From: Echinometra lucunter | Lineage: Eukaryota; Echinodermata; Echinoidea; Camarodonta; Echinometridae | Assembly (NCBI GenBank): GCA_029962745.1 | Contig: CM057158.1 | Location: 10,861,780 to 10,925,779, forward strand | Length of the DNA: 64,000 nt | Direction: 5' to 3' | Shown: positions 4,861-63,362 of the stretch, in pieces | How the letters are laid out: the number at the start of each line of letters is the position of its first letter | How positions within the stretch are numbered: the first letter of the stretch is position 1 | The notes under the pieces: generated by a model | What the model was told of the DNA's origin: nothing | What the model saw: only the letters and a program-made list of their open reading frames with translations | Databases searched by the model: none | Made by a program: the position numbers and the translations under genes

Positions 4861-4891
<31 letters not shown>

Positions 4892-6751: not shown

Positions 6752-6761
6752 GTACCATCCA

Positions 6762-7261
6762 NNNNNNNNNNNNNNNNNNNNNNNNNNNNNNNNNNNNNNN
6801 NNNNNNNNNNNNNNNNNNNNNNNNNNNNNNNNNNNNNNNNNNNNNNNNNNNNNNNNNNNNNNNNNNNNNNNNNNNNNNNNNNNNNNNNNNNNNNNNNNNN
6901 NNNNNNNNNNNNNNNNNNNNNNNNNNNNNNNNNNNNNNNNNNNNNNNNNNNNNNNNNNNNNNNNNNNNNNNNNNNNNNNNNNNNNNNNNNNNNNNNNNNN
7001 NNNNNNNNNNNNNNNNNNNNNNNNNNNNNNNNNNNNNNNNNNNNNNNNNNNNNNNNNNNNNNNNNNNNNNNNNNNNNNNNNNNNNNNNNNNNNNNNNNNN
7101 NNNNNNNNNNNNNNNNNNNNNNNNNNNNNNNNNNNNNNNNNNNNNNNNNNNNNNNNNNNNNNNNNNNNNNNNNNNNNNNNNNNNNNNNNNNNNNNNNNNN
7201 NNNNNNNNNNNNNNNNNNNNNNNNNNNNNNNNNNNNNNNNNNNNNNNNNNNNNNNNNNNNN
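6762..7261. other. Assembly gap, 500 N
   Basis: Exactly 500 N. The left contig ends one base after the 9-bp duplication that closes the 5.85 kb insertion; the right contig starts inside the intron/exon-3 block. Confidence 0.99.
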
Positions 7262-11679: not shown

Positions 11680-11842
11680 CACCAATGGGCCAAGTGTTTG
11701 TAATGGGAACTGTGGTTGTAACAAGTTGATGGACCTTTCTTGCAAACTGAACGAAGTGTAGCGACAGTACATTGAACCAAAACCAGTTGTTATCGTCATG
11801 TTCATTACGCACACTCATGATCTTCGCCTTGATAATCGTTCT
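11680..11842 (-). pseudogene. L1 exon 4: CTLD C-terminal part, frameshifted as assembled
   Basis: Acceptor TTTCACAG, then in phase with NWAG: ENDYQGEDHECA. A 2-bp loss relative to L3 then shifts the frame, a 1-bp loss restores it near CT.ATLRSVCKK, and a 1-bp gain follows in GAAAGG. A GTAATG donor-like site ends it, as in L3. The nearby 1-bp indels typical of this contig make consensus error as likely as true decay. Confidence 0.65.
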
Positions 11843-12836: not shown

Positions 12837-12868
<32 letters not shown>

Positions 12869-14954
12869 GGGGGGGGGGGGGTCCGAAAATAAAGGTTGGC
12901 ATTTTGATTGTAAAATACACCCACACAAAATGAGTTTTTATTCAGTATCCTATACATAATAAAGGTTTTATGATACAGTCTCTCATCTCATTTGGCAATG
13001 AAGTGAAATATTTAAAATACTCTTCTGAGATTTACAAAAAAAGAGACCAGCTTTAAGGTCACTTTAAGGCATGTACCATCCTAGTCCACTGCCTGGACTG
13101 TTTCTCTATGATCCGTACGCACACATATCAGCGCACACCATGGCCTATATATATGTACACCAAATAAAGTGCACGTACGGACACACAGCCTGAGAACAGT
13201 CCAGTACCCTTGGCAGGTTTTATTGCTTTCCCCCTAAATTCAGGGGGAACTTTTATCCGCCCCACTTCATGTGGTCAAAGATTGCAAGGTCGTGATTGGT
13301 TCCCGCTCATGCCAATCAAAAGATTAGGTTATATGTAACCTTGCACCGATCGTAACCTATAGTCTCCTTTTTAAAGCCATAACTATTAAATATCATGTAA
13401 TATCTTTACAATCCTAACACAATTACATGCCAAAAAAATCTTAGATATTTAAAAGAAAATCATAATTGTATATTATTGATTTTAAGAATCAATTCGAACA
13501 GGTTGGAAAGTTTTGATATGATTGTAAACTACAAAGACCTATTAAACATGCTTTGCCTGAAGACTATTCTGAACTATTCTGACAAGATCGAGAGTGGTAC
13601 CAGGGAGATGGGAGTTCATTCATGTTGCACCGCTGGGCTGATTTGTCTTATTTTTACAGAAAAGATAGAGGAAGTTATGGTGTGGTTTGAAGTGTCCGCT
13701 CATATACATTTTTACAAGCTATGCCCCACTTTTTACACTCTCTATTTTGTGCCGTATAGTTTATCTATCTAGAAAAACTTTACTGACAGTAGGCCTATGA
13801 TTTGAAATGGACAATTATATTCTTATTAAATCTGAATGATGTAAAAGTGGAACAAATAAATTCAGTTCAATTAAATTAAATTCAATCGACTTGTTGACTT
13901 CTCATGAGTTTACATTTGTAACTTTTCCTCACACACTTGTCGAATGGTGCGATTTGATGGTAGAAAAGTCACCAAATACATGTATGTCTTTAAAACTCTT
14001 CCGCAAGCCACTCCTTGAAGTTTTCGTAAAATTGATATAGTTTGCAGGTAACTACTAGGTTGATTGATTGATAGATTGATAAGATTGATTTACTGATATT
14101 TATTCGTCAAGCTTCGAACACAATATAGAAATAGACAAATAACTTGAAGCTTGATCAGGATAACCCACGAAAGCTCGAGAGCTTATTATTTTGTGGACTT
14201 CTCATGCCCCAGCATCCATACTGAAAACTTTAAATAATACCCAGTTGGCAGATTTCCTTCAGACTTGGTATATCTTTAGAGAAGGGGATTGTAAGGATAT
14301 CTTTGGAAGACTTTCTCAGAGATTGGGGTTGGTCAATCATTATGGTTCAATAAGAAGATACCGTCAAAGTCAAAACTTTTTCTACATTATGATGAATGGT
14401 ATGCAAAAATGTATATAAGGTATCAGATCATTGAACCCTCCTTTACCGGGATACAAGTTATTTGAAGAATTGATTCTTGATTTCAGTGTTTCTCATAAAG
14501 ATAGAAGGAAATATAATTTTTTGTTCAAAAAATACCAAAGTCATGGTTGGAAGCTGCTAACATCTGAAGATACTGACAATGATGTTGTGGGTATATACTA
14601 TAGTTATTGATAAACTTGTTCGAACGACAAAAAAAAAAAAAACCCAAAAGAAAACCTAGATATGCATATATACTGTAATACAAGACTCCTGTATCCCTGA
14701 TAAGCGTTATGATTACTGGAAAATAATTCAAAATGTTCCACAGATTAAACTGGAATCTGATTCATAATGTGAACTTTATGTGTTCAATCAGTACTCGTTT
14801 GCGCTCTTTTTATTTCAAGGTCTTTCATAAATCCATTGCCTTAAATGACTTTTTGTTAGGATAAAGAGAAAGGATTCACCAAACTGTATCTTTGTGGAAC
14901 AATGCCTTAATCAATTATTCATTTGTTTTATGATTGTGATATGGTAACCCCCTC

Positions 14955-14988
<34 letters not shown>

Positions 14989-33451: not shown

Positions 33452-36400
33452 GTTAGTATTAGTAAGAAGAAATATACTGCTGTGAGAGGGTCTGGTTAAA
33501 CTATGGTGCCCCCAGATATTAACGCCAATCACCGAATGCAACTATTTGCCTTCGGGGCTGTGCCCCTCAGGAAAATAGTCGCATTAGCGTTAGATCTAGA
33601 TCTACTTCGCCTTCGGGTACCAGTTTCCAACCAGATCCTCTCATGGCCGTATGTAGTCTAGATTGATACTGATAGGCCTATGAACCTTACATTTTGACCT
33701 AGAGTCTAGACTAGATCTAGACCAAAAAATCCTGTAGAGTGGGAGACCCTACCATGGAATTAAAATCTGGAGAACGTAAATAAACTCTATGCAGGACCCC
33801 ACCGAATAATAAGTCTAACGTTAAGAGGCTAACGAACTAAGTTGTTAGAGCCTATGATTATGAAGGAGGCAGATTTTTCTGTGTGGAATCTATCAGCAAA
33901 CGTGTTGAATTTAGCTAAGTTAGATTTATTTATTATTTTTCATCATTATGACATTATTAGTAGACTCTATTATTATTATTAATATTATTTTCATTATTGT
34001 TATTTTTGTTACTGTCATTATCATATGTGTCATCATCAAAATTATCATTAGTATTATCCTTATTATTATTATTAGAATAGTGTAGACAGATTCTAGTAGT
34101 AGTACATGGATCTGGGTCTGTAGTCTTCGTTTTCCTAAACAGCCTGGATTTAAGACCGGGGGTCGTCTCCTGTGCACAAGTACACATGCAGGCACGCTGA
34201 TCATTCATGGGTCTTTGGTCTTTGGTCTTCGTTTTTCAAACACCCCATGTTTCAGGCATCTTTTAAAAAAGATAGATCTAGTCTTTTTCGGTGAATGTCT
34301 CATTTAGGCCTGTACATCGTCCAAGTACATCACTTTCTGAAAAGCACCTTAAACAAAAATTCGAGTAGGAATGGTTTTGATACTGTAAACAGGGAAACCC
34401 GTCGAACAGCTCTGATTTTTATACCCTCAACACTAAGTAACGGGGATTTTATTCAAGGATTGTATCATCACCTCTAAATTTACATGTAATACCCTTTTTC
34501 TTGATTTTTTTGCTGTTGTAAATACCCTAAACGTGTTATTACGGGTTATGTGCTTGATGCTGAAAAGATTATCCTTTTTACTAGTTATTATGTAAGTGGA
34601 TCATATATAGACCTCATTTATCAAAGTAGGTCTTGACTATAGATCTTGCTCTTGATAAATTGTTTTTCCTTCTTTTTGTGTGTAAATTGTGTGTGTACAT
34701 GCATATCAGAATATGGCTGTCAAGCTGGCTGGCTCCATGAACCTTCAGGTGGATACTGCTACCGTTTCACTTCAGCTTTATGGTTAACATGGCCAGATGC
34801 CAGAACACATTGTATAGGACTAGGAGCTGACTTAACGAGCATACACAGTCAAGAGGAGAATGATTTTATATTTGGTAAGCAATCAAGAGGGATAATGTTC
34901 TACTTCTAGACAAAGATTGAAATCTCTACATGTATATGGGGGCTGCAAAGCTTGAAAAATTATGTCTCCATTTGGGAATGTCTCTGATTAATTGGTTTTA
35001 AATGTTGATAAAATTATTTTCTCAGTTTTTTAACAAGTTTTAAATTGTACATCTTATTTTGCCTTTTTATGCCTCCGCCCACCAAAGGTTAGTGCCGGAG
35101 GCATTGTGTTTTTGGAATGTCTGTCTGTCCGTCTGTCCCATTTTCGTTCTTGCGATAAATTTGACAGATCCAATTCAACATTGGCTCATGTATGCATACC
35201 AGAGTGACAATGATCTGATTAGACTGGGTCATGAGGTCAAAGGAAATAGAGGTCATAGAGGTCATTGTATACATGAAAATGGCTTGTTCTCATGATAACT
35301 TAAGAACCATATATGATGGATCAACTTCCGACTTGGTTCATGTATGCATATTGGACTGACATTGATATGATCAGATTTTGGGGTCATAAGGTTAAATGTT
35401 AAAGGTCATAGAGGTCATTGTATACATGATGGCTTGTTCTCATAACTTGAGAGCCATTTTACGGATTAACTTCAGTCTTGGCTCATGTATGCATATGGAA
35501 ATAACAATGATCAGCTTAGATATAGGGGTCAGAAGGTCAAAGGTCAGCGGTCATAGAGGTCATTGTATACACAGGGTTCTCACTAGAAAAAAAATCCACA
35601 CATGGTTCCCCCTCTGTGTCAAACGTGGAATTTTCGGAAGTTTTACGGAATAACACCTAAAGTTAACTAGGTGTGGCAGCAGTATATGCTATAGTAAAAG
35701 ATGAAAAATACTTCGTGGTAAGCAGGAGTTGTCTACTAATGGCATTATAGTAAAAATACATTGCCAAAAAGCAAAACAATCTGTGGCATTTATCATTATT
35801 GTTAGGAATATATACTCGAATATTTTTTTACCCTTGCTGCCACGCATGGTGCAGCAATTTCACACATGGTTCTTCCTTGTCTGAAACCCTTTACGCATGG
35901 TATTGGAACCATGGGTGTTATGTACTGGCGAGAACCATGTGTATACATGAAAATGGCTTGTTCCTGCGAACAGTTGATGGATCAACTTAAACTTTGCTCA
36001 TGTATGCATAAAGGTGTGACATTGATCTGATCAGATTTTGGAGTCACGAGGTTAAAGGTTGAAGGTCACAGCGGTCATTATATACATAAAAAGGGCTTGT
36101 TGGTCAATTACTTAAAAACCATTTAGAGAAATGAACTTCAAACCTGGCTCATGTATGCTTATGGGAGTGATTATGATTCGTCTATATTTGGGCATCTAGA
36201 AGTCAAAGGTCAAAGGTCAAAGGTTACAGAGACTGAAAAGCGTTGAAATCTTCTGATCAATTTTTCGTGACACAAAAAATTAACTCATCAATCTAATATT
36301 TAAAAAAGAAAAATATCAACTCCCATCTTCCAGCTTAATCATTTAGTGGGAAGTTATTATTAATTACACTCTGTTATATGCCACTGGATTTGTGGAATGT

Positions 36401-37123
36401 CTGTCAGATTTTAGGCCTGCAAAAGGTTGACACTGTTTTTAAAATCCAGTTGACAGACCAACTTCAAACTTGGCTAATGAATTTGGAAGTGACATTGATT
36501 TGTTTGGATGGCTTCTTTTTGCAATAACTTAAGAACCAATAAACAAACCATGTTCAAACTTAACTCATGCATATGGGATTGACGTTGATCTAAAGGTTAT
36601 CAAAGTTTTTGAAAAGTTTAAAAGTTCATTGTGTGATCTATTCAGATCTGACAATGGCCGAGGCATTACTTTTGACTGCGCACAGTCGAGAATAGTCATC
36701 TAGTTTCAAGTATTGAATATTTCATATCCTTATAATTTACTGCCACATATCTCCTCATGGTGGTATCATACTATGAGTTACCGAAAAGAAGCGTAACTGT
36801 GTTAAGGTAATTGTAATTCTCAAAGTTTGAAATGAATGAAAGAAAATATGAAATAATTTTTGTATATTTGAGTACTTGCAAATGCAGGCTACTCTGTTAA
36901 CTTTCATAAGGTACAGGCTGATCCAAGGTCCCCGAGTATTGCAATATAGGTGTTTTGATCTTTCTAGTGAAAAAAAAGTGTTTAAGATTTTCAGGGGTGT
37001 TTGTGTGTTCCATTCTAGATTTTATTACTGGATTTGTATGGATTGGAATAACTGATGAGGAAAATGAAGGAGTGTTTACTACATTTTCTGATGGAACTCC
37101 AATAAACTTCCAGAATTGGGCAG
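33379..37123 (+). CDS. L2: C-type lectin gene, partial (third CTLD exon missing)
   Basis: Plus-strand twin of L1 within the inverted repeat. Exons 33379-33451 (signal peptide), 34710-34874 and 37019-37123 (CTLD) have consensus splice sites and phase-1 boundaries. CTLD exon sequences match L1. The third CTLD exon should lie downstream of the 5.85 kb insertion but the contig stops at 44274 inside that insertion. The nearest upstream TATA-like site is at 33051. Predicted secreted, lectin-like; calcium-dependent sugar binding is doubtful because the paralogues lack EPN and WND. Confidence 0.85.
33483..33643. mobile_element. Small hairpin MITE next to the L2 leader exon
   Basis: Mirror copy, with an extra AGATCT unit inside. 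Confidence 0.55.
34710..34874 (+). CDS. L2 exon 2: CTLD N-terminal part
   Basis: 165 nt after a TATCAG acceptor, donor GTAAGC. Encodes YGCQAGWLHEPSGGYCYRF then LWLTWPDARTHC and LGADLTSIHSQ. Three cysteines of the long-form CTLD are here. Confidence 0.9.
35060..36540 (+). repeat. Tandem array, L2
   Basis: Mirror copy of the L1 array. Confidence 0.72.
35572..35939 (+). mobile_element. hAT-like MITE, L2
   Basis: Mirror copy, duplications 35564-35571 and 35940-35947. Confidence 0.75.
37019..37123 (+). CDS. L2 exon 3: CTLD central part
   Basis: 105 nt, acceptor TTCTAG, donor GTAATG. Encodes FVWIGITDEENEGVF, SDGTPINFQNWAG. Confidence 0.9.
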
Positions 37124-38666: not shown

Positions 38667-39485
38667 CTATAGGGACCTGAATTTAATTTAGAGGCCAAAG
38701 GTCATGTATGTAGGTCAGAGGTCAAATGAGAATAAAACTTGAATGACTTTGCAACCATTTTCCCGTTTGGAACCAAACTTGGATGGTAGCTGCTCTATAG
38801 AGACCTCAAAGTAATTTGGGGGTCAAGGTCATTTATGTAGGTCAAAGGTCAAATGAGGTCAATGTTAACTTTTTCTACTGGAGTTAGTAACTGTGAACCA
38901 CTAGCCCATTTGTAACTAAACTTGGGATCTCAGTTTGATTTGGTGGTCAAAGGTCAAATGAGTTGACATGTTAACATTTTCTACTAGGGTTAGTAACTTT
39001 TGAACCATTAGCCCATTTGTAACTAAACTTGGATGGTACTAGACAGCTGCTGGTCGTTTTAAACTGTCACCAATTCCCGAACATGCGTGCGCGCGCGCTG
39101 ATGTGGTATCTCCCCACGAATTCACTACCCCACGAATTCACCTTCCCCGAAAAAAACGACCAGCAAATCTCGGCAGCGAGGTTCCGATTTTAATGAGCAG
39201 TGACCCCATGACCCCGCTTCCCAAATAAGGACCCTCTCATGAATGATGCATGTTTGGTTTGATGAGGGGTCAGCTGGTCAGGCCAAGGCCAGTGTGTATG
39301 TGTGTCTGTGGTGTGTTTATTGGTGAATGTGAGAGTGATCAATGCATGCAGCTATTGACCCTTTCCCAAGACGTTCCACACGTCCAAATACATGGCATGG
39401 AAGTATACCTCCATGATATAAGATATGCATCGTATTGGAGAAAACTTTTTTCCAGATATTGCTGAGCTGAAGTTAACTAAAAGTC

Positions 39486-40214
39486 TGCCTACATAATGGA
39501 TAACGGAGATTTGTTAGGTGGTGTATGATTTGTGATTTAAGAATCTGGTCCAAAGACAGGTTTAGAAAGGCTAAACTTGAATACTTACAAAACAAGATAG
39601 AAGGAAAACAAACAAGATTCGAAAAAACTATCTGCTTGAATAATGGATAACGTGAGATCTGCCAGTATTAGGGTGTGTTCGTGATTTAAGAAATCTGGTC
39701 CAAAGACAGGTTAGAAAGGCTAAACTCGAACACTTACAAAACAACATGGAAGAAAAACAAACATGATTTGAAAAGACTTTGGCAAAATCTAAACGTTTAG
39801 GATTAAAAAGTAAGAAGAGGAAAGACAAGAGACAAGAGTCTAAAATTGATGAGAAATTATGTCATGATAAGCTGGTATAGCTCATGAATTTAATTCGTAT
39901 TTTACAAATGTGGCTGTCAAAAATTAGTAGACAAACTCCATCTTTCAGCCCAGACAAAAATTGTATTCGGAGTTTTTACGAAGGGAAAGTGTGTACTTGT
40001 GAATAGCTTCGAGTTGATACCAGTCAGTGAACAATTTGTAAGTTCAATGAGCTTCGCAGATTGAATGTATCAAAAAGTACTGAGCTAGACATGATTCCGG
40101 CTAGATTTTAAAAATAGTGCAAAGATTTTGTTCAAGCCTTGTGTTATTTAATGAACCTATCTGTCCTGATAAATACTTTTCCAGAGGATACGAAAATAGC
40201 ACCTCTATACCACG
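39486..40214 (+). mobile_element. LINE fragment, copy 3
   Basis: Inverted copy of the same fragment within the truncated insertion. Confidence 0.72.
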
Positions 40215-41269
40215 AAAAAGAGTACATTTTTCCTTGCTCGCCTCCGGACGCTCGTAATAGATAATGGATAATGACTGAGATTTTGATGACGATTATCACT
40301 TTACCATGAAAAGGAGTATACATATTTTTCCTCGCTTGCTCCACTCCCTCGTATCAGAAACTGGATAACTTTGGGAAAGCAAACCATTCGGCAAGCGAAG
40401 TCAAATGTATAAATGTATACTTTATAAGATACAGGATGGTTTCGGAAAGCGAACAAATTTGGCAAGTGAGGTGACCGAATATTTCTAAACATCTTATAGG
40501 CCTACTGCCGTATTTGATGAATAACACTTCTAACAATCAAAAGAATCTGTTTATCTCGCTCGGCCTGTCGCTTCGCTCGCTCGTAGCATCTAACCATTCA
40601 GGTGTCACAAATAGATTCACAGTCATCTGAAGGCGAATATTATTATTCTTATAGCCTACGAAGTGCATTTAGATGACAAAATAACAATTCTTATAACATG
40701 AAGTGGTTTATTTTTGGCTCGCTCGCTTCTCTCCGCTCACAAGTTCATATTTTAGCGAGAAGTGTATTTTTTCCCAAATTTTGAAAAATCGCTTACATGG
40801 CCTTAAATATTAAAGTAATAGTAATCCACCTAGATCTTATCCCCCCCCCCCCCCCTGCAAGGGACTTCGCGCTAGCGAGGTGCGCCTAAATTGATATTTC
40901 CAGGTGTGTGTTCAGCCCCCCCCCCCCCCACCCCCCCGTTCAGAAAGCATCCTACGCCCATGTATCTAACACACCTTTTAAAGTGATTACACAATGGTAA
41001 AAAAAAGGATATATGATCGAGAACAGAATTCTAAGAAGAATAACATTAAAAATTTGATGATTTGCAATCGAAATCAATGCATTTTTGGCTAATTATATGT
41101 GAATAGTCATGAGTTGACCAAGTGTTGTGCCCCTCACTTTTGCCTCCGAGTCCACTTCTTTAGCCGTAATGAATTATAGGAGAAACTGCAATTTATGCAG
41201 TTTCTCTTGAATACTAGATATATAGCTATTTTGAAGACTTTATACTAAGCCACTGGATGTGAAAAGGTA

Positions 41270-42090
41270 TAAAGGGGGGGGGAGGTGGCACAAGAAAGAA
41301 ATAGGCGTTAATCAGACGTAAAGGACATTTTTATCAGATTTGAAGGGGCAATTCAGAAGAAGAATCGCACTGCATAAAATGAAAGAAAACCTGGAAAAGG
41401 GGCTTATCATAATCAAACTGGACACTCATTTGAAGTAAAAAAAAGAAAACTTATCAGATTCGAGGTGAAAAATTACTTTTATTACAAAGCAAAGGGGAAC
41501 TGAACATGAATTAAATGGGTGTGTATCAATTGAAAAGGGGGCACATGCCGGAATGGAAAAGGAACACATCTAACAAAAAGTGGCAATTGTGGCACTACAG
41601 CATCTTAACAGAAGGGGAAATCGGACATACTAGAAAAGAAAAGGGGCATTTAGCTGGGGTATGTATCTGACTCCAAATGGGGCACTTGCCCAATAGAAAA
41701 AGGAAAAATTATCACAGGTGAAGAGGGTCACTCAGCAGAAGGGCAACTGCACTATTAGAACAAAAAATGAGCAGTCAAAAGGGGGCACTTATCACATTTA
41801 AATTTAGGAATATTCATCACAGTCATATAAAGGGAAAATAGGCCTAGCGCTACTAAAAAAAGGGAACGGGTCACTAATCGGCAGTAAAAAAGGGGGAGTT
41901 GTTGGGCTTAAGAAAGGCAACTTATCTAAATCGAAAAAAGGCACTTATTAAAAAAATGACCGTCGTAAGAAGAAAAGGGGCGCTGAACAGGTTTGAACAG
42001 GGGCACTTTCAAGGGTACTAGTATAAAAAGGGGCACTTTTGGGATGCTTGGAAAAGTGGGGGCACTGTGCCCCCCCCCCCGGCTCTGCCG
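41270..42090 (-). repeat. GTGCCCCTTTT-periodic tract, copy 3
   Basis: Inverted copy reading as AAAAGGGGCAC. Confidence 0.7.
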
Positions 42091-42443
42091 CCTCTGATTA
42101 CCATGGTATAACACATTGGAAATCCCTATCTGTTAATATAAAGAAAATAGAGAACTTAATTTGCTCATTTTGAAGAGAGGAAATTAAGGAATAACTGTCA
42201 ATAAGAGTCAGAGACGAGAAGAGAATGACATCCTGATTTATGACTGAAATTGCCTAATACAGACCACCTTGCTTTTGTCTGCCCGTTGAACTGATAGTTT
42301 CAAATTTTGTAAATAACTTTATTGATTTAGAAATTGTATACATGTATAATAATGATTGTTTTCCATTATTTCTCAATCTAATATAATTTCAATTTAATAA
42401 GTTTGTATTTTGAGGGCCCACTGGAAATAAGCTCTCGAGCTTT

Positions 42444-43732
42444 TTATTATTTTTTATTATTCGTATGTTTTATTGATTTTCATGATTACACACAAAGCAA
42501 TAAATAAGCAGCAATAAAATACCAACAAAATAAAATGAAATAATGACAGGAATGAATAATGATGTCGACAATGAAAAGATAAATAAAAAAGCAGTTATAT
42601 CTTATAAATGGGGTAGTTATTAAAAAACATCTACTGTATAGTTGATAACATCTGAACGTTTCACCCTAACAAATATAACAGTCTTCACAAAAATTTGCAA
42701 TCAAATTTCCCTCTCTTAAAGTGGATATAGAGTTTCCTTCTTCTTGGCCACATAATACTGTCTCTTTGGAATTTCATATGTTTCTTGATTAAAATTTTGG
42801 TCTAGTATTCTTGAATTGCATAGATAAATGAAATATTCTAAAGATACAAATATAAAGGACAGAAATTTGTCATATGAACTCCAAACATTTTCTTGAAATT
42901 ATCCAAAGTAAAACAGTTATAATGTTTTAAAAGAATTACTTGCAATAAATCACACATGGGGGGGGGGGGGAGGGGGTTACCATATCACAATCATAAAAAC
43001 AATGAATAATTGATTAAGGCATGTTCCACAAAGATACAGTTTGGTGAATCCTTTCTCTTTATCCTAAACAAAAAGTCATTTAAGGCAATGGATTTATGAA
43101 AGACCTTGAAATAAAAAGAGCGCAAACGAGTACTGATTGAACACATAAAGTTCACATTATGAATCAGATTCCAGTTTAATCTTGTGGAACATTTTGAATT
43201 ATTTCCCAGTAATCATAAACGCTTATCAGGGATAAGGAGTCTTGTATTACAGTATATATGCATATCTAGGTTTTCTTTTGGTTTTTTTTTTTTTTGTCGT
43301 TCGAACAAGTTTATCACAAACTATAGTATATACCCACAACATCATTGTCAGTATCTTCAGAGTTAGCAGCTTCCAACCATGACTTTGGTATTTTTGAACA
43401 AAAAAATTATTTCCTTCTATCTTTATGAGAAACACTGAAATCAAGAATCAATTCTTCAAATAACTTGTATCCGGTCGGTAAAGGAGGGTTCAATGATCTG
43501 ATACCTTAATACATTTTGCATACCATTCATCAAAATGTAGAAAAAGTTTTGACTTTGACGGTATCTTCTTATTGAACCATAATGATTGACCAACCCCAAT
43601 CTCTGAGAAAGTCTTCCCAAAGATATCCTTACAATCCCCTTCTCTAAAGATACCAAGTCTGAAGGAAATCTGCCAACTGGTATTATTTAAAGTTTTCAGT
43701 ATGGATTCTGGGGCATGAGAAGTCCACAAAAT
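42444..43732 (-). mobile_element. 5'-truncated LINE, copy 3
   Basis: Inverted copy with the duplication at 42426-42443 and 43733-43750. The same internal stop is kept. Confidence 0.85.
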
Positions 43733-44274
43733 AATAAGCTCTCGAGCTTTCGTGGGTATCCTGATCAAGCTTCAAAGTTATTTGTCTATGTCTATATTGT
43801 GTTCGAAGCTTGACGAATAAATATCAGTAAATCAATTATCAATCTATCAATCAATCAACCTAGTAGTTACCTGCAAACTATATCAATTTTTACGAAAACT
43901 TCAAGGAGTGGCTTGCGGAAGAGTTTTAAAGACATACATGTATTTGGTGACTTTTCTACCATCAAATCGCACCATTCGACAAGTGTGTGAGGAAAGTTAC
44001 AAATGTAACTCCATGAGAAGTCAACAAGTCGATTGAATTTAATTTAATTGAACTGAATTTATTTGTTCCACTTTTACATCATTCAGATTTAATAAGAATA
44101 TAATTGTCCATTTCAAAATCATAGGCCTACTGTCAGTAAATTTTCTAGATAGATAAACTATACGGCACAAAAAGAGAGTGTAAAAAAGTGGGGCATAGCT
44201 TGTAAAAATGTATATGAGCGGACACTTCAAACACACACCATAACTCCTCTATCTTTTCTGTAAAAATAAGACAA

Positions 44275-44774
44275 NNNNNNNNNNNNNNNNNNNNNNNNNN
44301 NNNNNNNNNNNNNNNNNNNNNNNNNNNNNNNNNNNNNNNNNNNNNNNNNNNNNNNNNNNNNNNNNNNNNNNNNNNNNNNNNNNNNNNNNNNNNNNNNNNN
44401 NNNNNNNNNNNNNNNNNNNNNNNNNNNNNNNNNNNNNNNNNNNNNNNNNNNNNNNNNNNNNNNNNNNNNNNNNNNNNNNNNNNNNNNNNNNNNNNNNNNN
44501 NNNNNNNNNNNNNNNNNNNNNNNNNNNNNNNNNNNNNNNNNNNNNNNNNNNNNNNNNNNNNNNNNNNNNNNNNNNNNNNNNNNNNNNNNNNNNNNNNNNN
44601 NNNNNNNNNNNNNNNNNNNNNNNNNNNNNNNNNNNNNNNNNNNNNNNNNNNNNNNNNNNNNNNNNNNNNNNNNNNNNNNNNNNNNNNNNNNNNNNNNNNN
44701 NNNNNNNNNNNNNNNNNNNNNNNNNNNNNNNNNNNNNNNNNNNNNNNNNNNNNNNNNNNNNNNNNNNNNNNNNN
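44275..44774. other. Assembly gap, 500 N
   Basis: Exactly 500 N. It interrupts the third copy of the 5.85 kb insertion and hides the third CTLD exon of L2 and the leader exon of L3. Confidence 0.99.
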
Positions 44775-45781: not shown

Positions 45782-45946
45782 AATATGGCTGTCAAGCTGG
45801 CTGGGTCCATGAACCTTCAGGTGGATACTGCTACCGTTACAATTCAGCTTTATGGGTAACATGGCAAGATGCCAGAACACATTGTATAGGACTAGGAGCT
45901 GACTTAACGAGCATACACAGTCAAGAGGAGAATGATTTTATATTTG
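45782..45946 (+). CDS. L3 exon: CTLD N-terminal part
   Basis: 165 nt, same splice sites as L2. Five substitutions from L2, all replacement: L to V in GW(L/V)HE, F to Y and T to N after CYR, L to V in LW(L/V)TW, P to Q in TW(P/Q)DAR. Confidence 0.9.
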
Positions 45947-48900
45947 GTAAGCAATCAAGAGGGATAATGTTCTACTTCTAGACAAAGATTGAAATCGCAT
46001 GTATATGGGGGTTGCAAAGCTTGGAAAATTATGTCTCCATTTGGGAATGTCTCTGATTAATTGGTTTTAAATGTTGATGAAAATATTTTCTCATTTTTTA
46101 ACAAGTTTTAAATTGTACATCTTATTTTGCCTTTTTATGCCTCCGCCCACCGATGGTTAGTGCCGGAGGCATTGTGTTTTTGGAATGTCTGTCTGTCCGT
46201 CTGTCCCATTTTCGTTCTTGCGATAACTTTGACAGATCCAATTCAAATTTGGCTCATGTATGCATACCAGAGTGACAATGATCTGATTAGATTGGGTCAT
46301 GAGGTCAAAGGTCATAAGGTCATTGTATACATGAAAATGGCTTGTTCTCATGATAACTTAAGAACCATATATGATGGATCAACTTCAGACTTGGTTCATG
46401 TATGCATATTGGACTGACATTGATATGATCAGATTTTGGAGTCATAAGGTTAAATGTTAAAGGTCATAGAGGTCATTGTATACATGATGGCTCGTTCTCA
46501 TAACTTGAGAGCCATTAACAGATTAACTTCAGTCTTGGCTCATGTATGCATATGGAAATAACAATAATCAGCTTAGATATAGGGGTCACAAGGTCAAAGG
46601 TCAGCGGTCATATAGGTCATTGTATACACAGGGTTCTCACTAGAAAAAAATCCACACATGGTTCCCCCTCTGTGTCAAACGTGGAATTTTCGGAAGTTTT
46701 ACGGAATAACGCCTAAAGTTAGATGTAGGCAGCAGTATATGCTATAGCAAAAAGATGAAAAATACTTCTTGGTAAGCAGGAGTTGTCTACTAATGGCATT
46801 ATAGTCAAAATACATTGTCAAAAAGCAAAACAATCTGTGGCATTTATCATTATTGTTAAGAATATATACTCGAATATTTTTTTACCCTTGCTGCCACGCA
46901 TGGTGCAGCAATTTCACACATGGTTCTTCCTTGTCTGAAACCCTTTACGCATGGTATTGGAACCATGGGTGTTATGTACTGGCGAGAACCATGTGTATAC
47001 ATGAAAATGGCTTGTTCCTGCGAACAGTTGATGGATCAACTTAAACTTGGCTCATGTATGCATAAAGGTGTGACATTGATCTGATCAGATTTTGGAGTCA
47101 CGGGGTTAAAGGTTGAAGGTCACAGAGGTCATTATATACATAAAAAGGGCTTGTTGGTCAATTACTTAAATTAACTCATCAATCTAATATTTAAAAAAGA
47201 AAAATATCAACTCCCATCTTCCAGCTTAATCATTTAGTGGGAAGTTATTATTAATTACACCCTGTTATATGCCACTGGATTTGTGGAATGTCTGTCAGAT
47301 TTTAGGCCTGCAAAAGGTTGACACTGTCTTTAAAATCTAGTTGAAAGACCAACTTCAAACTTGGCTAATGAATTTGGAAGTGACATTGATTTGTTTGGAT
47401 GGCTTGTTTTTGCAATAACTTAAAGGGGGTACCCAATGCTGAAACAACGTTAGTTCATTTAAAAAAGCATGATTTTATTAGCAGAAAATCATCTGCCTAA
47501 ATTTTTTTTTTAAGTCGTGTTGCCAAGGAAAATCCAAAATGTGGTAAGATTTCAGGATATTTTTGACCCCTCAGCTGTGACCCAGTTTCAACTGGGTACC
47601 CACTTTGACGTCAAAATGACGTCAAAGTGGGTACCTTGTTGCGCAATTCTAGCAAAATGCGCGCAAGGTATAATACAAATTGTACAGTCTAGCGCGCAGC
47701 ACAACTGCAATGCGCGAAGCTGGGTAACCACTTTTACGTCATACCTCATACTCAAATTTTTTGGTCAACTCTTGACTTTTTATGAGAAAATTAGCCAAAA
47801 TGCATTGATTTCGATTGAAAATCATCAAATTTTTATTGTTATTCTTCTTAGAATTCTATTTTCGATCATATATCAAAAAAAAATTTGCCATTGTGTAATC
47901 ACTTTAAGAACCAATAAACAAACCAAGTTCAAACTAAACTCGTGCATATGGATTGACGTTGATCTAAAGGTTATCAAAGTTTTTGAAAAGTTTAGAAGTT
48001 CATTGTGTGATCTATTTCAGATCTGACAATGGCGGAGGCATTACTTTTGACTGCACACAGTTGAGAATAGTCACCTAGTTTCAAGTATTGAATATTTCAT
48101 ATTCTCATAATTTACTGCAACATATCTCCTCATGGAGGTATCATATTATGAGTTACCGAAAAGAAGCGTAACTGTGTTAAGGTTATTGTAATTCTCAAAG
48201 TTTGAAATGAATGAAAGAAAATATGAAATAATTTTTGTATGTGTGAGTACTTGCAAATGCAGGCTACTATGTTAACTTTCATAAAGTACAGACTGATCCA
48301 AGGTCCCCGAGTATTACAATATAGGTATTTTGATCTTGCTAGTGAAAAAAAAAGTGTTTAAGATTTTCAGGGGTGTTTGTGTGTTCCATTCTAGATTTTA
48401 TTACTGGATTTGTATGGATTGGAATAACTGATGAGGAAGAGGAAGGAGTGTTTACTACATTTTCTGATGGAACTCCAATAACCTTCCAGAATTGGGCAGG
48501 TAATGTTGTACATGTATTATATTTAACCTAATGGCCAATATCATTTTTGAGCCACCGAAGGTGGAGCGAGACGAAAGGATCCTTAGTGGTGTCCGTCCGT
48601 CTGTACGTATGTAACGCTTATAAAACTTGAATAACTTTGCGACTGTTTGCCCGTTTGGAACCATACTTGGATGGTAGATGTTCTATAGGGACCTCAGTAT
48701 AATTTACAGGTCAAAGGTCAAATGAGGTCAAATCTTAACATTTTCTAACTTTAAAACACCAGCCCATTTGTAACCAAACTTGGACGGTGGATGCTCTATA
48801 GGGAATTTAATTTGGGGGCCAAAGATCATGTATGTAGGTCAGAGGTCAAATGAGAATAAAACTTGAATGACTTTGCAACCATTTTCCCGTTTGGAACCAA

Positions 48901-51036
48901 ACTTGGATGGTAGCTGCTCTATTGAGACCTCAAAGTAATTGGGGGGTCGAAGGTCATTTATGTAGGTCAAAGGTCAATGTTAACTTTTTCTGCTGGAGTT
49001 AGTAACTGTGAACCACTAGCCCATTTGTTAAACTAAACTTGGGATCTCAGTTTGATTTGGGGGTCAAAGGTCAAATGAGTTGACATGTTAACATTTTCTA
49101 CTAGGGTTAGTAACTTTTGAACCACTAGCCCGTTTGTAACCAAACTTGGATGGTACATGCCTTACAGTGACCTTAAAGCTGGTCTCTAGTTTTGGTAAAT
49201 CTCAGAAAAGTATTTTTAAATATTTCACTTCATTGCCAAAATGAGATGAGAGACTGTATCATAAAACCTTTATGATGTATAGGATACTGATTACTGAATA
49301 AAAACTCATTTGTGTGGGTGTATTTTTCAATCAAAATGCCAAATCTTTAGTTTTCAGACCCCTAAAACATTCTCAACGCAGCATCACACAGTGCTCATAC
49401 ACACACACAAAAAAAAACAATGGGAGTTCCATTTGGCCACAGGTACATAGCGAATCACTGTGTGTTTTATGCCGAGCTCGTCAGCATGGAGGTGTCAGAG
49501 CCTACCGTTGAGTGTGACCGTTATACTGCGTTTCACTCGTACATTTACTATAAAATTCATCAGAATTCATGGAAGGAATGTCAGACAATTTAACACATAT
49601 ATCTTTTCATGCAAGATGGACATTATGAGACTATACTTGCTCAGTTCAATGTCAATTCTCATTTTGCTAGCAAAACTAGAGACAGGATAGGGGTCAGAGA
49701 TCACGTATGCAGGTCAAATGTTAACATTTACCAGGGGTTGGTAACTTTCAAGCCCATTTGTAACCTAACTTGGATGATAGATGGCTTATAAGGACCTCAG
49801 TGTTAGTTGCAGTCAAGGGTCATGTTTGTAGGTCAAAGGTCAAATGCGATCAAATTACAATTTACCTGCAAGAATGATGGCAAGTGGATGTGACGAGACA
49901 CATTATGGCTACTGGCTTGTTGAATCTATTCCTTATTGAACTTGATGTACAGTATGTGGGCCCATAACTGCATGAAATATTCACAGGATTAACCCATTCA
50001 TGACAGAGGTCCACATTTTGTGGTTTCGCCTTGTATCTTTTGATGCAAAGCCCTAAAAATCATAGCCAAATACATGAGCAGAAAGAGCAAAAAATTCTAC
50101 ATAAACTGGGCCCATTTTGGTTGCATTAATATTTGTTGTTTGATGCTGAAAATTTTTTTAAAGGAAAATAAGCATTAAAATCCTTAAATTGGCAATGTGA
50201 TAGAAAGTTTAAATCACTGTTTTCCCCTGCAAATTGGCAACTTTTTGACTTCTCATCATAATTTCCGTCAATTTATATTCATTTCAGATACATGATGTTT
50301 TATAAGAAAATGTAGCAATAAAATAAAAATGTTGGTTTGCCAATTTGAAGAATAAAAGCTGATTCAAATTAGGCTTTAAATAATTCCTGTCAGGAATGGG
50401 TTAAACTGAATTTGAATACTGGTACCAATTGTCATGTGAGGCTCTCCTTGGAAGCTATGGTATGTGATGACTGTATGTACTCACCTAATCATTGGCATCA
50501 CAATTACACAAAAGATTTGAATATAGACAGTATATACCTGGGTTATATCCATCAAATTTATCTGGCTCTAGATCTCCTATTCTGCTAATAATTTCTGCAT
50601 CCTGCAGTACTGCATCGTACAAAAAAATGTGAAGAAGTGATGAATTTTGCAGGAGTAGCATAAAAGTACTTCATAATTATACCATCACACACAGGTGCCC
50701 ACATTTATGATAATGATACTAGTATATACTATATATAGGACCACAATGCAATATTGGTATTAAAAAATGCTATAATTGTCAAGTCATATAAAGTCTAACT
50801 GAATGCTATCTATATCATTTCTTTATTTCATTAGTTTTTATCCCATTTTCTTATCTCCCCTTCTTTCACAGAGAAGTCTTATCAAACCGATCATCGTGAT
50901 TGTGCTGCATTGAAACATGACCCTAACAACTGGTTTTGGTTTTCATGTACTACTTCTACACTTCGTTCAGTTTGCAAGAAAGTCCATCAACTTGTTACCA
51001 CCACAGTTCCTATTACAAACACTCTGCCCATTGGTG
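45782..51036 (+). CDS. L3: C-type lectin gene, complete CTLD (leader exon in the gap)
   Basis: Exons 45782-45946, 48395-48499 and 50872-51036 reconstruct an uninterrupted long-form CTLD. It has six cysteines (YGC, GYCY, THC, RDCA, FSCT, SVCKK), WIGITD and NWAGEKSYQ. The Glu-Pro-Asn sugar motif is E-K-S and the W-N-D motif is W-F-S, so canonical calcium-site-2 ligands are missing. After SVCKK the frame continues as VHQLVTTTVPITNTLPIG, a Thr-rich linker, and meets a GTAATG donor-like site in phase 1. Without splicing there it would read on to 51305. The signal-peptide exon seen in L1 and L2 would fall in the gap before 44775. Intron 2 is short because the 5.85 kb insertion is absent. Confidence 0.88.
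46130..47420 (+). repeat. Tandem array, L3
   Basis: Same array, shorter by a deletion of about 170 bp at 47167. Confidence 0.72.
46629..46993 (+). mobile_element. hAT-like MITE, L3
   Basis: Same insertion, duplications 46621-46628 and 46994-47001. Absent from L4. Confidence 0.75.
47424..47903 (+). mobile_element. TTAA/AGGGGG MITE, second locus in L3
   Basis: Same family inserted at a different TTAA. Single TTAA in L2 (36529), L1 (21439) and L4 (62780). Confidence 0.82.
48395..48499 (+). CDS. L3 exon: CTLD central part
   Basis: 105 nt. Encodes FVWIGITDEEEEGVF, SDGTPITFQNWAG. The three substitutions from L2 change two codons (AAT to GAG, AAC to ACC), both replacement. Confidence 0.9.
49157..50460 (-). 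repeat. L3 copy of the intron-2 segment
   Basis: Inverted counterpart of 1-907. It lacks the poly-T/poly-G expansion and holds a TTAA/CCC MITE. Confidence 0.88.
49993..50400 (+). mobile_element. TTAA/CCC MITE (piggyBac-like)
   Basis: TTAA on both sides; termini CCCATTCATGACAG and CTGTCAGGAATGGG match 13 of 14. Empty TTAA at 61-64 and 12222-12225. Confidence 0.82.
50872..51036 (+). CDS. L3 exon: CTLD C-terminal part plus Thr-rich linker
   Basis: Acceptor TTTCACAG joins in phase to exon 48395-48499. Encodes EKSYQTDHRDCAALKHD, NNWFWFSCTTSTLRSVCKK, then the TTTVPITNT linker. The end at GGTG/GTAATG is inferred; the same sequence is conserved in the L1 copy. Confidence 0.8.
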
Positions 51037-57889: not shown

Positions 57890-58067
57890 ATCATTATTAT
57901 TATCATCATTATTATTATTATTATTTTCATTGATATTATTATTACTATTATTATTACTATTATTATTATTTGTGTCATTAATATTGTCATTTCTATTATC
58001 ATTATTGTTATTTTCCTTATCAAGATATTGTATCAGTGTTATTGTACTTATAAAAAAAATTCATATA

Positions 58068-58862
58068 AACACAACAAAAAAGTAACTCCCCCCTAATTCA
58101 AAGTAGCATAACTTTTTAACGAAAAAGTTTGGAGCAAAATAATTTGGCAGGAGTGTTTCTTCACTTATTGACTTACTTCTGTGTGAAAATGAGATTGATC
58201 CGTCAACTCATGCATGAGCGAGCAAACATTAAAGGCAAAAATGTCACTTTTCAAAAGTCACAAGAGTCATTTTGGGGCTCTGTGAAACAAACCTGTGGCG
58301 AATTTGAATTCTTCCTTTGTTTGATCCAGTCATGCCTATCCCCGACACTTTTCATGTTTATCACAGTTTGGGTGAACTCAGTTTTTTTGAGAAAAATTAT
58401 GTTCAGCCCTCCAAAATCTGCAAAATCCATTCAGTTTGTGGAAAAAACTGGCATCAACCAACATGAGTCAGCACATTATGTGAAAATACCAGGTATTCGT
58501 TTTTTTCCGGCATTAAACAGTAAGTTTTCAGTATTTATTGCTTCATCGTTCGCACTTTTGTCACTCAACCATGCATGGCACAACCTCGAAAAACATCAAC
58601 AACACTTAAAAAACGCCAGAAAAACCTTGTTTCACAAATCCCCCCAAATGACTCTTGTGACTTTTGAAAAAATGATATTTTTGCCTTTAATGTCTGCTCA
58701 CTCGTGCATGACTTGACAGATCAATCTCATTTTCAAACAGAAGTTAGTCAATAAGTGTAGGAACACTCCTGCCAAATTATTTTCCTAAAAACGTCTTCTT
58801 TTTTTTTTATATAAAGTTATGCTATTTTGAATTAGGGGGGAGTTACTTTTTTTGGTGTGTTT
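58068..58862. mobile_element. Foldback element with long inverted termini
   Basis: AAAGTAACTCCCCCCTAATT at one end and its reverse at the other; the arms extend over 200 bp. L1-L3 lack it between the AAT-rich tract and AGTACATGG. It carries a 195-codon frame (58129-58716) across both arms that shows no known domain. Confidence 0.75.
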
Positions 58863-59812
58863 AGTACATGGATCCCTGGTCTTTATGGTCTTCAATTTTC
58901 CTTAACAGCCTGGATTTTTTCAAAAAGAAGACCGGGGATTGTCTCCTGGGTGCCAGTACAGATGCAGACACACCGATCATTCATAGGCCTTTGGTCTTTT
59001 GTCTTCGTTTTCCAAACACCCCATGTTTCAAGATTCTTAAAAAACGTAGTCTCTTTCCGGGAATGTCTCATTTAGGCCTGTACATCATCCAAGTACATCA
59101 CTTTCTGAAGAGCACCTTAAACAAGAATTAAAGTAGGAGTGGTTTTGATACTGAAAACAACGAAACCTCTCTAACGTCCTTGATTTTTATACCCTTAACA
59201 GGGATTTTGTTCAAGAATTGTATCATCACCTCTAAATTTAAGGCCCTTATTCTTGATTTTTTGCTGTTTTAGATTCCCTAAACGCGTTATGTGCCTAATG
59301 CTGAAAAGATTACCCTTTTACTCTTTATCATGTACGTGGACCATGTATTGGCCTTAGGCTGTGGTCACAAAAGAGAACGGCGACCGACCGATGAGCAGCC
59401 TGCTGGGGCGCCGCTGGAATTCAGGCATCGCCCCACGATTTTTGGAGAAGTCGAGCGGGCTCCAACGCAGTGACAGTGACCGAATAATGACCCATCGATC
59501 CCCGCACGATCTCCCATTGGTCATCGGCAGATTTTAAGAAATCGCCCGCGGGCCAGCCGGTTATCATCTGGACATCTGCGGGTGTCCCGTAGGTGTACCG
59601 GCGGTGGCCCACCGGTCTCCCCGGTCTCCGCCGGGAATTTCTCAAGAACGACCTGGGTATATAATATGTGATTGCCCCTACGCCATCAAGAACAACGGTT
59701 TTACTCTGCATCTGACAGGTCAACTAGGTCTACGATGCCGTTGATTCCACTTCAATGACCACGACATCGAGGACATCGAGACCCACGAGCCCATAGGCTG
59801 AGCAGTGCCTTA

Positions 59813-61165
59813 TACCGTGTGTCTAAAAAAAAACGTAACACTTTTGAAATGGTTGCCAAATTGAGCATATGTAATTTTATGAAGAAATGTCGATATGCAT
59901 AGAAAGCTGAAAGACCAACCTTTCATATGATATGAAAAATTGGAAAAAAAATCATGCTTCGATGAACAGTGTTCACTTAAGTTAGAGGTATGAAAATGTG
60001 CCTGCGCAGGATTTTTCCTTCCAATTTTGGACAGGTAAGTTACTTGTAGCTTACAAAATAAGGTCGATATGAGATATTCATGATCGATGGATCAACAGGA
60101 TATTTTGAATACCTTGAATACCATTCCTTTTTCTCTGTTATTTATCAATCCCGAAACACCACCGCCCACCCCCCCCCCCACACACACACACGCACACACA
60201 CTTCCACTCCCATCTTATTGTATCATTGATCTGGTAGATGTGAACGGGATTAAGGATGAATGAGAATTGGCTAAATTGAAATATTCCAAATCATAACATT
60301 ACGCAACCCACTGTCCTCCCCTCCCACACACACACACACACACACACACATACAACCTTCTTCCTATCCTCTCACCTACTCCTTCCTTTTTTATCACTTT
60401 TCTTCTGAAAGTTTGGTGGATCATTTTTTTTCCATTAATAATCAAATTATTAACCAGTCACTCATTTTGATCAATGAAATCAATCGATAAATCACTGAAA
60501 CATTAATTCCATCAAGCAATTGCTCAAACCAATTATCACACGCACACAAACCACACACACACACGCACGTACACATACACCCACGCGCGCGCGCACACAC
60601 ACACACACACACACATTAGGTCAGACATGACAAAAACAAGTTAAATCTTTTTTTTTAAAGATGTTCATGTTTCTTTTATTTTTTTTTCTTATTTACAACT
60701 GCTTTGTTCATCTTAAAATGAAAGATCTGACAAAAGTAATCAGTTCATAGTCCACATGGCTATCTTTTCTTCTTGACTGAATATCACGGCTTTCAAAGTA
60801 CCGATTGAGTAAGGGTACCGGCATGGGTGGTGTTTGGGGATTGATAAATGACAGAGAGAAAGGACTGGTATTCAAAACATCCTTTTAACTCTTAATCCAT
60901 CGATCATGAATATCTCATATCAAATTTATTTTGTATGCTATACCTGTCCAAAATTGGAAGGAAAAATCCTGCGCAGGCCCATTTTCATACCTCTAACTTA
61001 AGTGAACCCTGTTCATCGAAGCATGATTTTTTTTCAATTTTTTCATTTCATATGAAAGGTTGGTCCTTTAGCTTTCCATACATATTGACATTTTTTCATG
61101 AAATAATAAATGCTCAATTTGGCAACCATTTCAAAAGTGTTACGTTTTTTTTGAGACACACGGTA
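59813..61165. mobile_element. Nested TA-flanked foldback element (mariner-like)
   Basis: TACCGTGTGTCT ... AGACACACGGTA flanked by TA. Arms of about 350 bp (to about 60168, from about 60816) are roughly 90% identical; CA microsatellites fill the loop. Confidence 0.72.
60540..60616 (+). repeat. CA/CG microsatellite
   Basis: Alternating CACACA with a CGCGCG core; further CA runs near 60180 and 60330. Confidence 0.9.
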
Positions 61166-61656
61166 TATGGCTGGGCAGAAGCCGCGGGTAATCAAACAGG
61201 CGCCACCTGCATGCCGGTCTATTTTGAACTAGCCGACCGGCGACCGACCGATCTCCAAGCGACGACCGGTCAGCGACCTCTCTGCAGTCTTTTCCTCTAG
61301 CGCCTTCGATTTTTTACCTTAATTGCTCGACAGAGACCACTCGATTAGGTCGGTCTCCAGGCGGTGACCGCCCGAGCACCAAGCGTATTTACGGCGGCGA
61401 GTGAAAAGTGAGCCGGCGCCGCCGATATTTTAACTCCTCGCTAAAACTTCAGCGGCGACTGAGCGATGCTCTAAATAACAGCAGTGCCCAGGTGGCTGCC
61501 ACTCGGTGACCGGGTGAAATTGGGTTTTTGGCTGTGTGACCATAGCCATACTTAAATCAAAGTAGGTCTTGACCATAGTTTAGATCTAGCCTCTTAATGT
61601 TTTTTTTTTTTTTTTTTTTTTTTTGTGTGTAAATTGTGTGTGTACATGCATATCAG

Positions 61657-61821
61657 TTTATGGCTGTGAAGCTGGCTGGTTCCATGAATCTTCCAGAGGA
61701 TACTGCTACCTGTTCATTGAAAATTTATGGTTGACGTGGGCAGATGCCAGAACACATTGCTTAGGTCTGGGAGCTGACTTAACGAGCATACAGGGTATAT
61801 GGGAGAATGATTTGATATTTG
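61657..61821 (+). CDS. L4 exon: CTLD N-terminal part
   Basis: 165 nt, acceptor TATCAG behind a long poly-T tract, donor GTAAGC. Starts TT TAT GGC TGT, so the junction residue would be Val if the preceding exon ends in G. Confidence 0.85.
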
Positions 61822-63362
61822 GTAAGCAATCAAGAGGGATAATGTTCTGCTTTTAGACAAAGATTGAAATCTCTGTACATGTATATCGGGGCTGCAGAGC
61901 TTGGAAAAATTATGTCTACATTTGGGGACGTCTCTGATTAATTGGTTTCAAATGTTGATGAAAATATTTTCTCATTTTTTAATAAGTTTTAAATTGTAAA
62001 TCTAATTTTGCCATTTCTTGCCTCCACCCACCGAAGGTTAGTGCCAGAGGCATTTTATTTTCGGAATGTCTGTCCGTCCGTCTGTCCCATTTTCATTCTC
62101 GCGATAACTTTAACAGATCCATTTTTACAGATCCGATTCAACCTTGGCTCATGTATGCATACCGGAGTGACAATGATCTGATTAGATTTTGGGTTCACAA
62201 GGTCAAAGGTCAAAGTCATAGAGGTAATTTTATACATGAAAATGACTCGTTCTCACGATAACTTGGGAACCATTTGACGAATCTACTTCAAACTTGGCTC
62301 ATGCATGCATATGGGACTGACAATGATCTGATAAGATTTTGGGGTTACAGAGTTAAATGTCGAAGGTCACAGATCTTGTGTACATAAAAAGGGCTTGTTC
62401 TCCCAATAACTTGAGAATCATTTAATGAAATCGACTTCAAACCTGGATCATGTATGCTAATGGAGTGATGATTTGTCTCTATTCATGCATCAAGAGGTCA
62501 AAGGTCAAAGGTTATAGAGACTGAAAACTCTTGAAATCTAATGATCTGTTTTTCATGACAGGAAAAATTAACTCAGTCTAAAAAAAAAAAGCTATTAACT
62601 CCCATCTTCCAGCTTAATCATTTAGTGGGAAGTTATTATCAATGAGACTGCTATATACCACAGGACTTGTGGAATGTCAGATTTTAGGCCTGCAAAAGGT
62701 TGACACTGTCTTTAATATCCAATTGACTTATGAATTTTTAAGTGACAATGATTTGTTTGGATGGTGTTTTTGCAATAACTTAAGAATCAATGAACAAACC
62801 AAGTTCAGACTAAACTCACGCATGCAGGAGTGGCATTGATCCAAAAGTTATCAAAATTTTTGAAAAGTTTAAAAGTTCAGTGTGTGTGATCTATTTCAGA
62901 TCTGACAATGGCTGAGGCATTACTTTTGACTGCGTGCAGGCGAGAATACATCTAGTTTCAAGTATTGAATATTTCATGTTCTCATAATTTATTGCAACAT
63001 GCCTCCTCATGGAGGTATCATACTATGAAGCGTAACTGTGTTAAGGTTATTGTAATTCTCAAAGTTTGAAATGAATGAAAGAAAATATGAAATAATTTTG
63101 TATGTGTGAGTACTTAAAATAGACGCTACGTTGTTGACTTTCATAAGGTACTGACTGATCCACAGTCCTCAAGTATTGAGTAATATAGGTATTTTGATCT
63201 GTTAGGTGAAAAAAGTGTCTAAGATTTTCGGGTGTGTGTGTGTGTGGTCCATTCCAGATCTTATTACAGGATTTGCATGGATTGGAATAACTGATGAGGA
63301 AGAGGAAGGAGTGTTTACTACATTTACTGATGGAACTCCAGTAACCTTCCAGAATTGGGCAG
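61657..63362 (+). CDS. L4: divergent C-type lectin CTLD exons, partial
   Basis: Two CTLD exons (61657-61821 and 63258-63362) in the same phase-1 layout. The first encodes YGCEAGWFHESSRGYCYLF, LWLTWADARTHCLGLGADL and ENDLIFG. The second encodes FAWIGITDEEEEGVF, TDGTPVTFQNWAG. L4 is the most diverged copy; in the first exon about 18 codons differ by replacement and 5 silently from L3. No signal-peptide exon was found between L3 and L4, and the third exon is expected beyond 64000. It may be a separate gene with a leader I missed, or a second CTLD of L3. Confidence 0.82.
62015..62790 (+). repeat. Tandem array, L4
   Basis: Shorter, lacks the hAT-like MITE found in L1-L3. Confidence 0.68.
63258..63362 (+). 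CDS. L4 exon: CTLD central part
   Basis: 105 nt, acceptor TTCCAG, donor GTAATG. Retains WIGITD, DGTP and NWAG. The nuclear-receptor-type repeat that follows this exon in L1-L3 is absent here. Confidence 0.85.

Follow-up and report, generated by a model that had tools for sequence, protein, structure and literature searches.

The CTLD of close copies in a cluster of lectin genes of Echinometra lucunter varies almost solely by replacements, and the exons located behind the CTLD are constrained. It is probable that the four units of the cluster studied here, L1 to L4, are the N-terminal CTLD exons of REJ/polycystin-1-like receptors with a positively selected CTLD, a reading that further supposes two haplotypes, a receptor with two CTLDs and a role as sperm receptor. 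The units lie in the window, that is, the whole stretch of 64,000 nucleotides that was analysed (C8:10861780-10925779), and its CTLD exons and scaffold gaps are the following, in positions of the window:

6762..7261, no strand, 500-N scaffold gap separating contigs a and b; the two contig ends have an 11.7 kb overlap across it
11680..11842, minus strand, L1 CTLD exon C, its frame broken by one-base indels in contig b
20847..20951, minus strand, L1 CTLD exon B, identical to L2
23097..23261, minus strand, L1 CTLD exon A, identical to L2
30717..31216, no strand, 500-N scaffold gap (run of N) between contigs b (L1) and c (L2)
34710..34874, plus strand, L2 CTLD exon A, aligned with L3
37019..37123, plus strand, L2 CTLD exon B; contig c stops at 44274, before any exon C
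44275..44774, no strand, 500-N scaffold gap (run of N) between contigs c (L2) and d (L3, L4)
45782..45946, plus strand, L3 CTLD exon A, phase 1-1, AG/GT borders
48395..48499, plus strand, L3 CTLD exon B, phase 1-1
50872..51036, plus strand, L3 CTLD exon C, encoding the final three cysteines of the domain plus a linker rich in T/V/P; acceptor TCTTTCACAG, donor G/GTAATG of phase 1
61657..61821, plus strand, L4 CTLD exon A, phase-1 acceptor
63258..63362, plus strand, L4 CTLD exon B, aligned with L2 and L3

The coding sequence of the CTLD is split over three exons, the first two of which (A and B) are both of phase 1-1 with AG/GT borders. The third exon of L3 (50872-51036) is absent from the initial annotation and was discovered by tblastx between clusters (P2, P4, L3 and L4), further copies being then read directly; the view that the CTLD lacks a third exon and consists of neutrally evolving fragments was dropped after this result. 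The corresponding exon of L1 has an open frame in the overlapping contig a (C8:10861457-10861293, just left of the window), and exon C of L4, together with its REJ and GPS exons, is located to the right of the window, from C8:10926016 onwards. Whole-frame Pfam scans had recovered exon A of L1, L2 and L3 only, missing the other known exons, and a PDB scan of one frame missed the exon B of L4 lying inside that very frame; because known exons escaped them, the silence of such scans is uninformative. Rfam and tRNA searches gave nothing useful, and a protein search in a large database gave no candidate. When exon C is included, the CTLD of L3 matches positions 4-107 of the 107 of the Pfam model Lectin_C (PF00059) with an E of 4.4e-15, the query carrying four extra residues from the intron end.

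A search of the 743 Mb genome with exon B returned ten matches on C8 and a weak one on C16 (E 9.8e-4) that was set aside. Genome and local searches together gave ten pairs of exons A and B on C8, named P1 to P6 and L1 to L4, of which P3 and P4 are the same sequence, and the cluster is located at C8:10.55-10.96 Mb. REJ-type exons are present behind P1, P2, P4, P5, P6 and L4; behind L1 and L3, the stretch up to the next unit or the contig end yielded none. The genome-wide search for REJ yielded 64 matches; six of them follow L4 in order, covering model positions 35-415 of 452, and two of these six contain an in-frame stop within the matched stretch. The exon pieces behind L4, joined by hand, matched REJ (PF02010) with an E of 6.6e-80 and, at C8:10961640-10962317, GPS (PF01825) with an E of 3.1e-9. 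GPS exons lie behind P1 as well as L4, and a third at 10.807 Mb. From the sequence, we infer that CTLD and REJ exons are joined in one transcript. The phase-1 donor of L3 exon C is retained in both versions, and exon A of L4 has a phase-1 acceptor. These matching phases suggest a receptor with two CTLDs, L3 first and L4 second, in which the CTLD of L1/L3 would be an additional lectin domain, placed first and spliced to the CTLD of L4 type within one gene. Exon C of P4 (C8:10767377-10767760) runs into a long TTTVP repeat; P6 has a long version of this repeat as well, P5 and L4 a short one. Elsewhere in the genome, four REJ pieces in domain order at C2131:13658-22792 perhaps represent another version of a cluster gene. 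Bindin, known from echinoderms, was detected in this genome with an E of 4.1e-69 and in none of 14 control genomes; its two partial places 13 kb apart (C17:7868407-7882904) could be a false duplication.

The alignment of seven CTLDs showed the conserved cysteines and the WIG core of the fold. The calcium-site motifs of carbohydrate-binding C-type lectins are EPN/QPD and WND, and both are absent from the seven CTLDs used, on inspection of the alignment by eye. As judged from this alignment, L1 to L4 have the CTLD fold without the classical sugar site, and since the classical motifs are missing, the ligand may be something other than a conventionally bound sugar. The closest solved sequences are the CTLDs of LY75, mannose receptor and PLA2R (E 6e-44 for the whole chain of LY75), a likeness that includes an N-terminal stretch with conserved GC and W; members of this family, which are different receptors, are not known to have REJ or GPS.

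Unmerged contig overlaps inflate the copy counts of the cluster, and any analysis of dN/dS between paralogues must therefore first separate alleles from copies. Three gaps, each of exactly 500 N, separate contigs a, b, c and d in the window. BLAST aligned 11,551 bases between contigs a and b, among which there are 38 substitutions (0.33%) as well as 183 gap openings. This homology joins the start of one contig to the other contig's end on the far side of the gap, and is an overlap left unmerged. Contigs b and c, in opposite orientation, have 11,265 bases in common; here the substitutions number 44 (0.39%) and the gap openings 132. Application of a second aligner gave substitution rates of 1.21% for b-c, 1.39% for a-b and 2.27% for a-c, and only 0.19% for the half of b-c that contains L1 and L2. 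L1 and L2 show no difference in the 165 bases of exon A or the 105 bases of exon B. Because the substitutions between b and c are few and the indels are mostly of one base or in homopolymers (82 of 102 are single-base, and homopolymers contain 54), the most likely reading of L1 and L2 is a single sequence that was assembled twice. The same overlap defect was found for P3 and P4 (contigs e and f), with 10,331 bases at 0.52% and contig ends overlapping across a gap. Every N gap in the window parts overlapping or homologous contigs, and the apparent tandem or inverted duplications at 1-6761, 12162-18947 and 39030-44274 arise at least partly for this reason.

Moved repeats excepted, contig d, which contains L3 and L4, follows the order of b plus a for the most part, at a divergence of about 2-6%, and d and b/a are probably two haplotypes, L3 being the other haplotype of L1/L2. 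That L1/L2 and L3 are recent true paralogues and not alleles, with L1/L2 as a real, very young inverted duplicate, is a possibility of some weight, if not the probable one. Such a duplicate is conceivable because the b-c homology begins inside both contigs, away from the contig ends. Further, a third version of the L4 unit (contig x1, with P5) is roughly 3-7% apart from both a and d; three versions at this distance do not fit a simple two-haplotype reading, and part of the cluster could be a true duplication. An L1-type unit was not found in the 33 kb upstream of P5 in contig x1. Against paralogy, d aligns with b and a in largely collinear order up to contig ends beside N gaps, the contig ends of a/b and e/f overlap across gaps, and gaps between copies have been described as a mark of false duplication (PMC9516828). 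The preferred reading of L1/L2 and L3 is that of two haplotypes, and the four paralogues of the initial annotation are probably only two: L1 is practically L2, haplotype versions are likelier than paralogues in the case of L2 and L3, and L4 stands as a separate, second CTLD.

Several mobile-element-like sequences were observed around the exons. An element of 0.47-0.49 kb, located after exon B in L2 (37362-37830) and before exon B in L3 (47419-47907), probably represents a transposable element that occupies a different site in each version. Contigs c (39030-44274), b (13643-18947) and a (1476-6761) share a 5-6 kb block that is missing at the matching place in d, perhaps as an insertion polymorphism. 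Between L3 and L4, about 800 bases (58066-58863) match their own reverse complement (70%), and 59807-60163 forms with 60826-61171 an 87% inverted repeat about 350 bases long; the repeats at 58066-58863 and 59807-61171 look like mobile elements.

The report that exons A and B of L2 and L3 differ only by replacements was confirmed by recounting. Ungapped alignment gave five substitutions in exon A (34710-34874 against 45782-45946) and three in exon B (37019-37123 against 48395-48499), that is, eight in 270 bases and seven codons, none of them silent. Saturation had been discounted, correctly so, since intron divergence is only 3.2% (63/1961); yet exons A and B, at 3.0% (8/270), change no faster than the intron. 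Eight replacements out of eight have a probability of 0.09-0.14, given about 212 replacement and 55 silent sites and varying with the transition bias assumed, and 84 of 1297 intron windows translated as coding, with 6-10 substitutions each, are also without silent change. The likelihood-ratio test on this pair alone gives p = 0.061, and omega for exons A and B of L2, L3 and L4 is 0.90 (p 0.81; range about 0.4 to 2.2). Because the intron is equally diverged and the result has a chance of about 1 in 10, exons A and B of L2 and L3 are insufficient for selection: the observation is true and, taken alone, no proof of it. For L4, the codon counts in the initial annotation were near the truth (17 replacement and 5 silent codons in exon A against L3, counted from the codon table), but the claim of the same bias was rejected: L2 and L4 differ in this exon by 19.5 replacement (N) and 7.5 silent (S) changes on 129 and 33 sites, and the resulting pN/pS of about 0.66 fits neutrality.

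Counting over exons A, B and C gave an N:S of 25:1 between L1/L2 and L3, on about 300 replacement and 76 silent sites, with a probability of 0.006-0.023 for one silent change or fewer in 26. The ratio is 26.5:2.5 for P6-L4, 22:2 for P5-L4 and 14.5:2.5 for P5-P6, and the more distant pairs are nearly neutral overall, with 46:13 for I1-L4, I1 being a composite of L2 exons A and B with exon C of contig a, and 26:9 for P2-P4. Before counting, P3 (the sequence of P4) and L1 (that of L2) were removed; P1, which is diverged and has an exon C out of frame as assembled, was aligned and enters neither the listed pairs nor the site models. Exon C is the fastest-changing of the three CTLD exons between L1/L2 and L3, with 17 of the 25 replacements, and holds 12 of the 26.5 in P6-L4, where exon A has 11. 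Divergence of exon C from its flanks was tested for these two pairs only, the exon being unlocated in the two comparisons with P5 in the first row, and exon C was faster in both: 18/110 (16.4%) against 49/986 (5.0%; p 4e-5) for L1/L2-L3, and 12/113 (10.6%) against 111/2396 (4.6%; p 0.011) for P6-L4. Exons A and B showed no significant speed-up over introns in four comparisons (lowest p 0.058). With exon C included, the replacement rate of L1/L2-L3 exceeds the intron rate (25/300 against 62/1960, p 1e-4). Behind the CTLD, the exons of P6-L4 have 10.5 silent and 17.5 replacement changes (pN/pS 0.48), and pN/pS is 0.47 for P5-P6, 0.90 for P5-L4 and 0.37-0.48 for pairs with P2 or P4. The Fisher test of CTLD against post-CTLD exons gave p 0.02 for P6-L4 and was not significant for P5-P6 (p 0.15) or P5-L4 (p 0.24).

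Site models were fitted with our own implementation to seven CTLD sequences. The model with positive selection was preferred (M1a against M2a, 2dlnL 19.05, p 7e-5), M2a assigning 21% of sites an omega of 3.9 and 39% an omega of 0.08; a single omega for the seven sequences is 0.86, indistinguishable from 1 (p 0.42). None of the 42 completed null simulations reached 19.05 (95% point 5.6, maximum 7.89). By exon, the test gave p 0.021 for A+B, 0.0025 for C and 0.054 for A; it gave p 2.6e-5 without P2 and P4, 6e-4 without four loop columns and 1.3e-5 with another topology. A positively selected class is thus supported across the copies, not in every subset, since without L3 and P6 the test is not significant (p 0.079). 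Naive posteriors above 0.9 were obtained at alignment columns 21, 23, 47, 94, 96, 101, 106, 114, 117 and 118, and 7 of these 10 fall in exon C, which in CTLDs makes up much of the long-loop, ligand-facing half. The diversifying selection proposed in the initial annotation is consequently upheld once exon C and copies outside the window are added (25:1; 2dlnL 19.05), and finds no backing in exons A and B when only L2, L3 and L4 are compared (omega 0.90, p 0.81).

Gene conversion among the copies is likely, and it is able to inflate site models. As the explanation of the excess itself, namely that a patch from a diverged copy entered exon C of one haplotype and that its replacements are old and arrived together, conversion is doubtful. 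It is in line with the SYQT common to L3 exon C and P4, and with the end of L4, which reads LRSVCKK as in L1/L3, while those of P5 and P6 do not. A donor with a pS of about 0.2 would, on the other hand, predict about 4 silent changes, whereas exon C shows 1 against 17 replacements; the excess is repeated in P5/P6/L4; and conversion moves variants and does not create an excess of replacements. Positive selection on the CTLD is preferred to conversion as the source of the excess.

The CTLDs of L1/L2 and L3 differ at 19 of 125 residues (about 15%), with one silent change. By analogy with s-Themis, the locus might be a within-species hypervariable system of mate or self recognition, formed by alleles of a sperm REJ receptor with gain or loss of a whole CTLD unit between haplotypes, which we consider unlikely. 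Ciona s-Themis is described as a sperm polycystin-1-like self-sterility protein, hypervariable within species, and shares with the locus the REJ and GPS domains in addition to a region that is hypervariable within species (PMC7018956). Unlike in s-Themis, the variable part here is the CTLD.

Neutral drift or relaxed constraint, by which the exons would be leftovers of decaying duplicates and the eight replacements out of eight a product of chance, is quite unlikely. It would account for exons A and B of L2 and L3, with their probability of about 0.1, their intron-like divergence and the same pattern in 84 of 1297 intron windows, and also for the single omega that does not differ from 1. Decaying exons would hardly show, however, 270 bases free of indels where about 1.4 kb of aligned intron has 25 and 27 in the two comparisons with L4, an exon B slower than the intron (5/105 against 182/1349 for L3-L4, p 0.009; less clear for L2-L4, p 0.075), strong constraint at 39% of CTLD codons, or a replacement rate above the intron rate once exon C is counted. 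The pseudogene reading of the lectin exons was rejected. Selection driven by pathogens on an immune lectin family, the identity first suggested for these genes, is likewise improbable. The CTLD fold itself and the at least 151 Lectin_C matches in the genome, as expected of a large repertoire, agree with it; the REJ and GPS domains behind the CTLD in the same gene cluster, as in polycystin-1-type receptors, the absence of EPN/QPD and WND on reading the alignment, and the gamete role reported for REJ-family CTLDs (PMC1934368) do not. Errors of an unpolished long-read assembly are a very improbable source of the differences: there is redundancy among contigs a, b, c and between e, f, and one-base and homopolymer indels like those between b and c also occur in L1 exon C and P3 exon B, but exons A and B of L1 and L2 are identical across separate contigs, b has the base of a at 20 of the 21 exon C positions where a differs from d (L3 itself being in one contig only), and random errors predict an N:S near 4:1 against the 25:1 observed, so sequencing error was rejected.

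The REJ family is described as having CTLD, REJ, GPS, PLAT and 1-11 TM as frequent features, and REJ CRDs from six species as being under positive selection (PMC1934368, the latter citing Mah 2005). The locus resembles suREJ/SpREJ 1-3 in the presence of CTLD, REJ domain and GPS in one gene region and in the positive selection reported for the lectin domains (PMC1934368). It differs from them in that copies or haplotypes of one genome are compared here and in that several genes are clustered on one scaffold, with a second CTLD unit in some versions. No report of this cluster was found in the lectin/REJ literature among the matches listed, which is weak evidence, subscription journals being mostly uncovered. 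The locus is best regarded as one more member of the REJ kind, for whose lectin domains positive selection has already been reported; less expected here are the contrast inside a single genome, the presence of an extra CTLD unit and the clustering. By analogy, the CTLD would be the ligand-contact part of a putative sperm-surface receptor, and its change may be driven by coevolution with an egg-coat ligand, as has been argued for sea urchin REJ1-3. The cluster would thereby offer a concrete, testable gamete-recognition locus in a probable broadcast spawner, where positive selection is visible between copies or haplotypes of one genome in the lectin part, while the REJ part is constrained.
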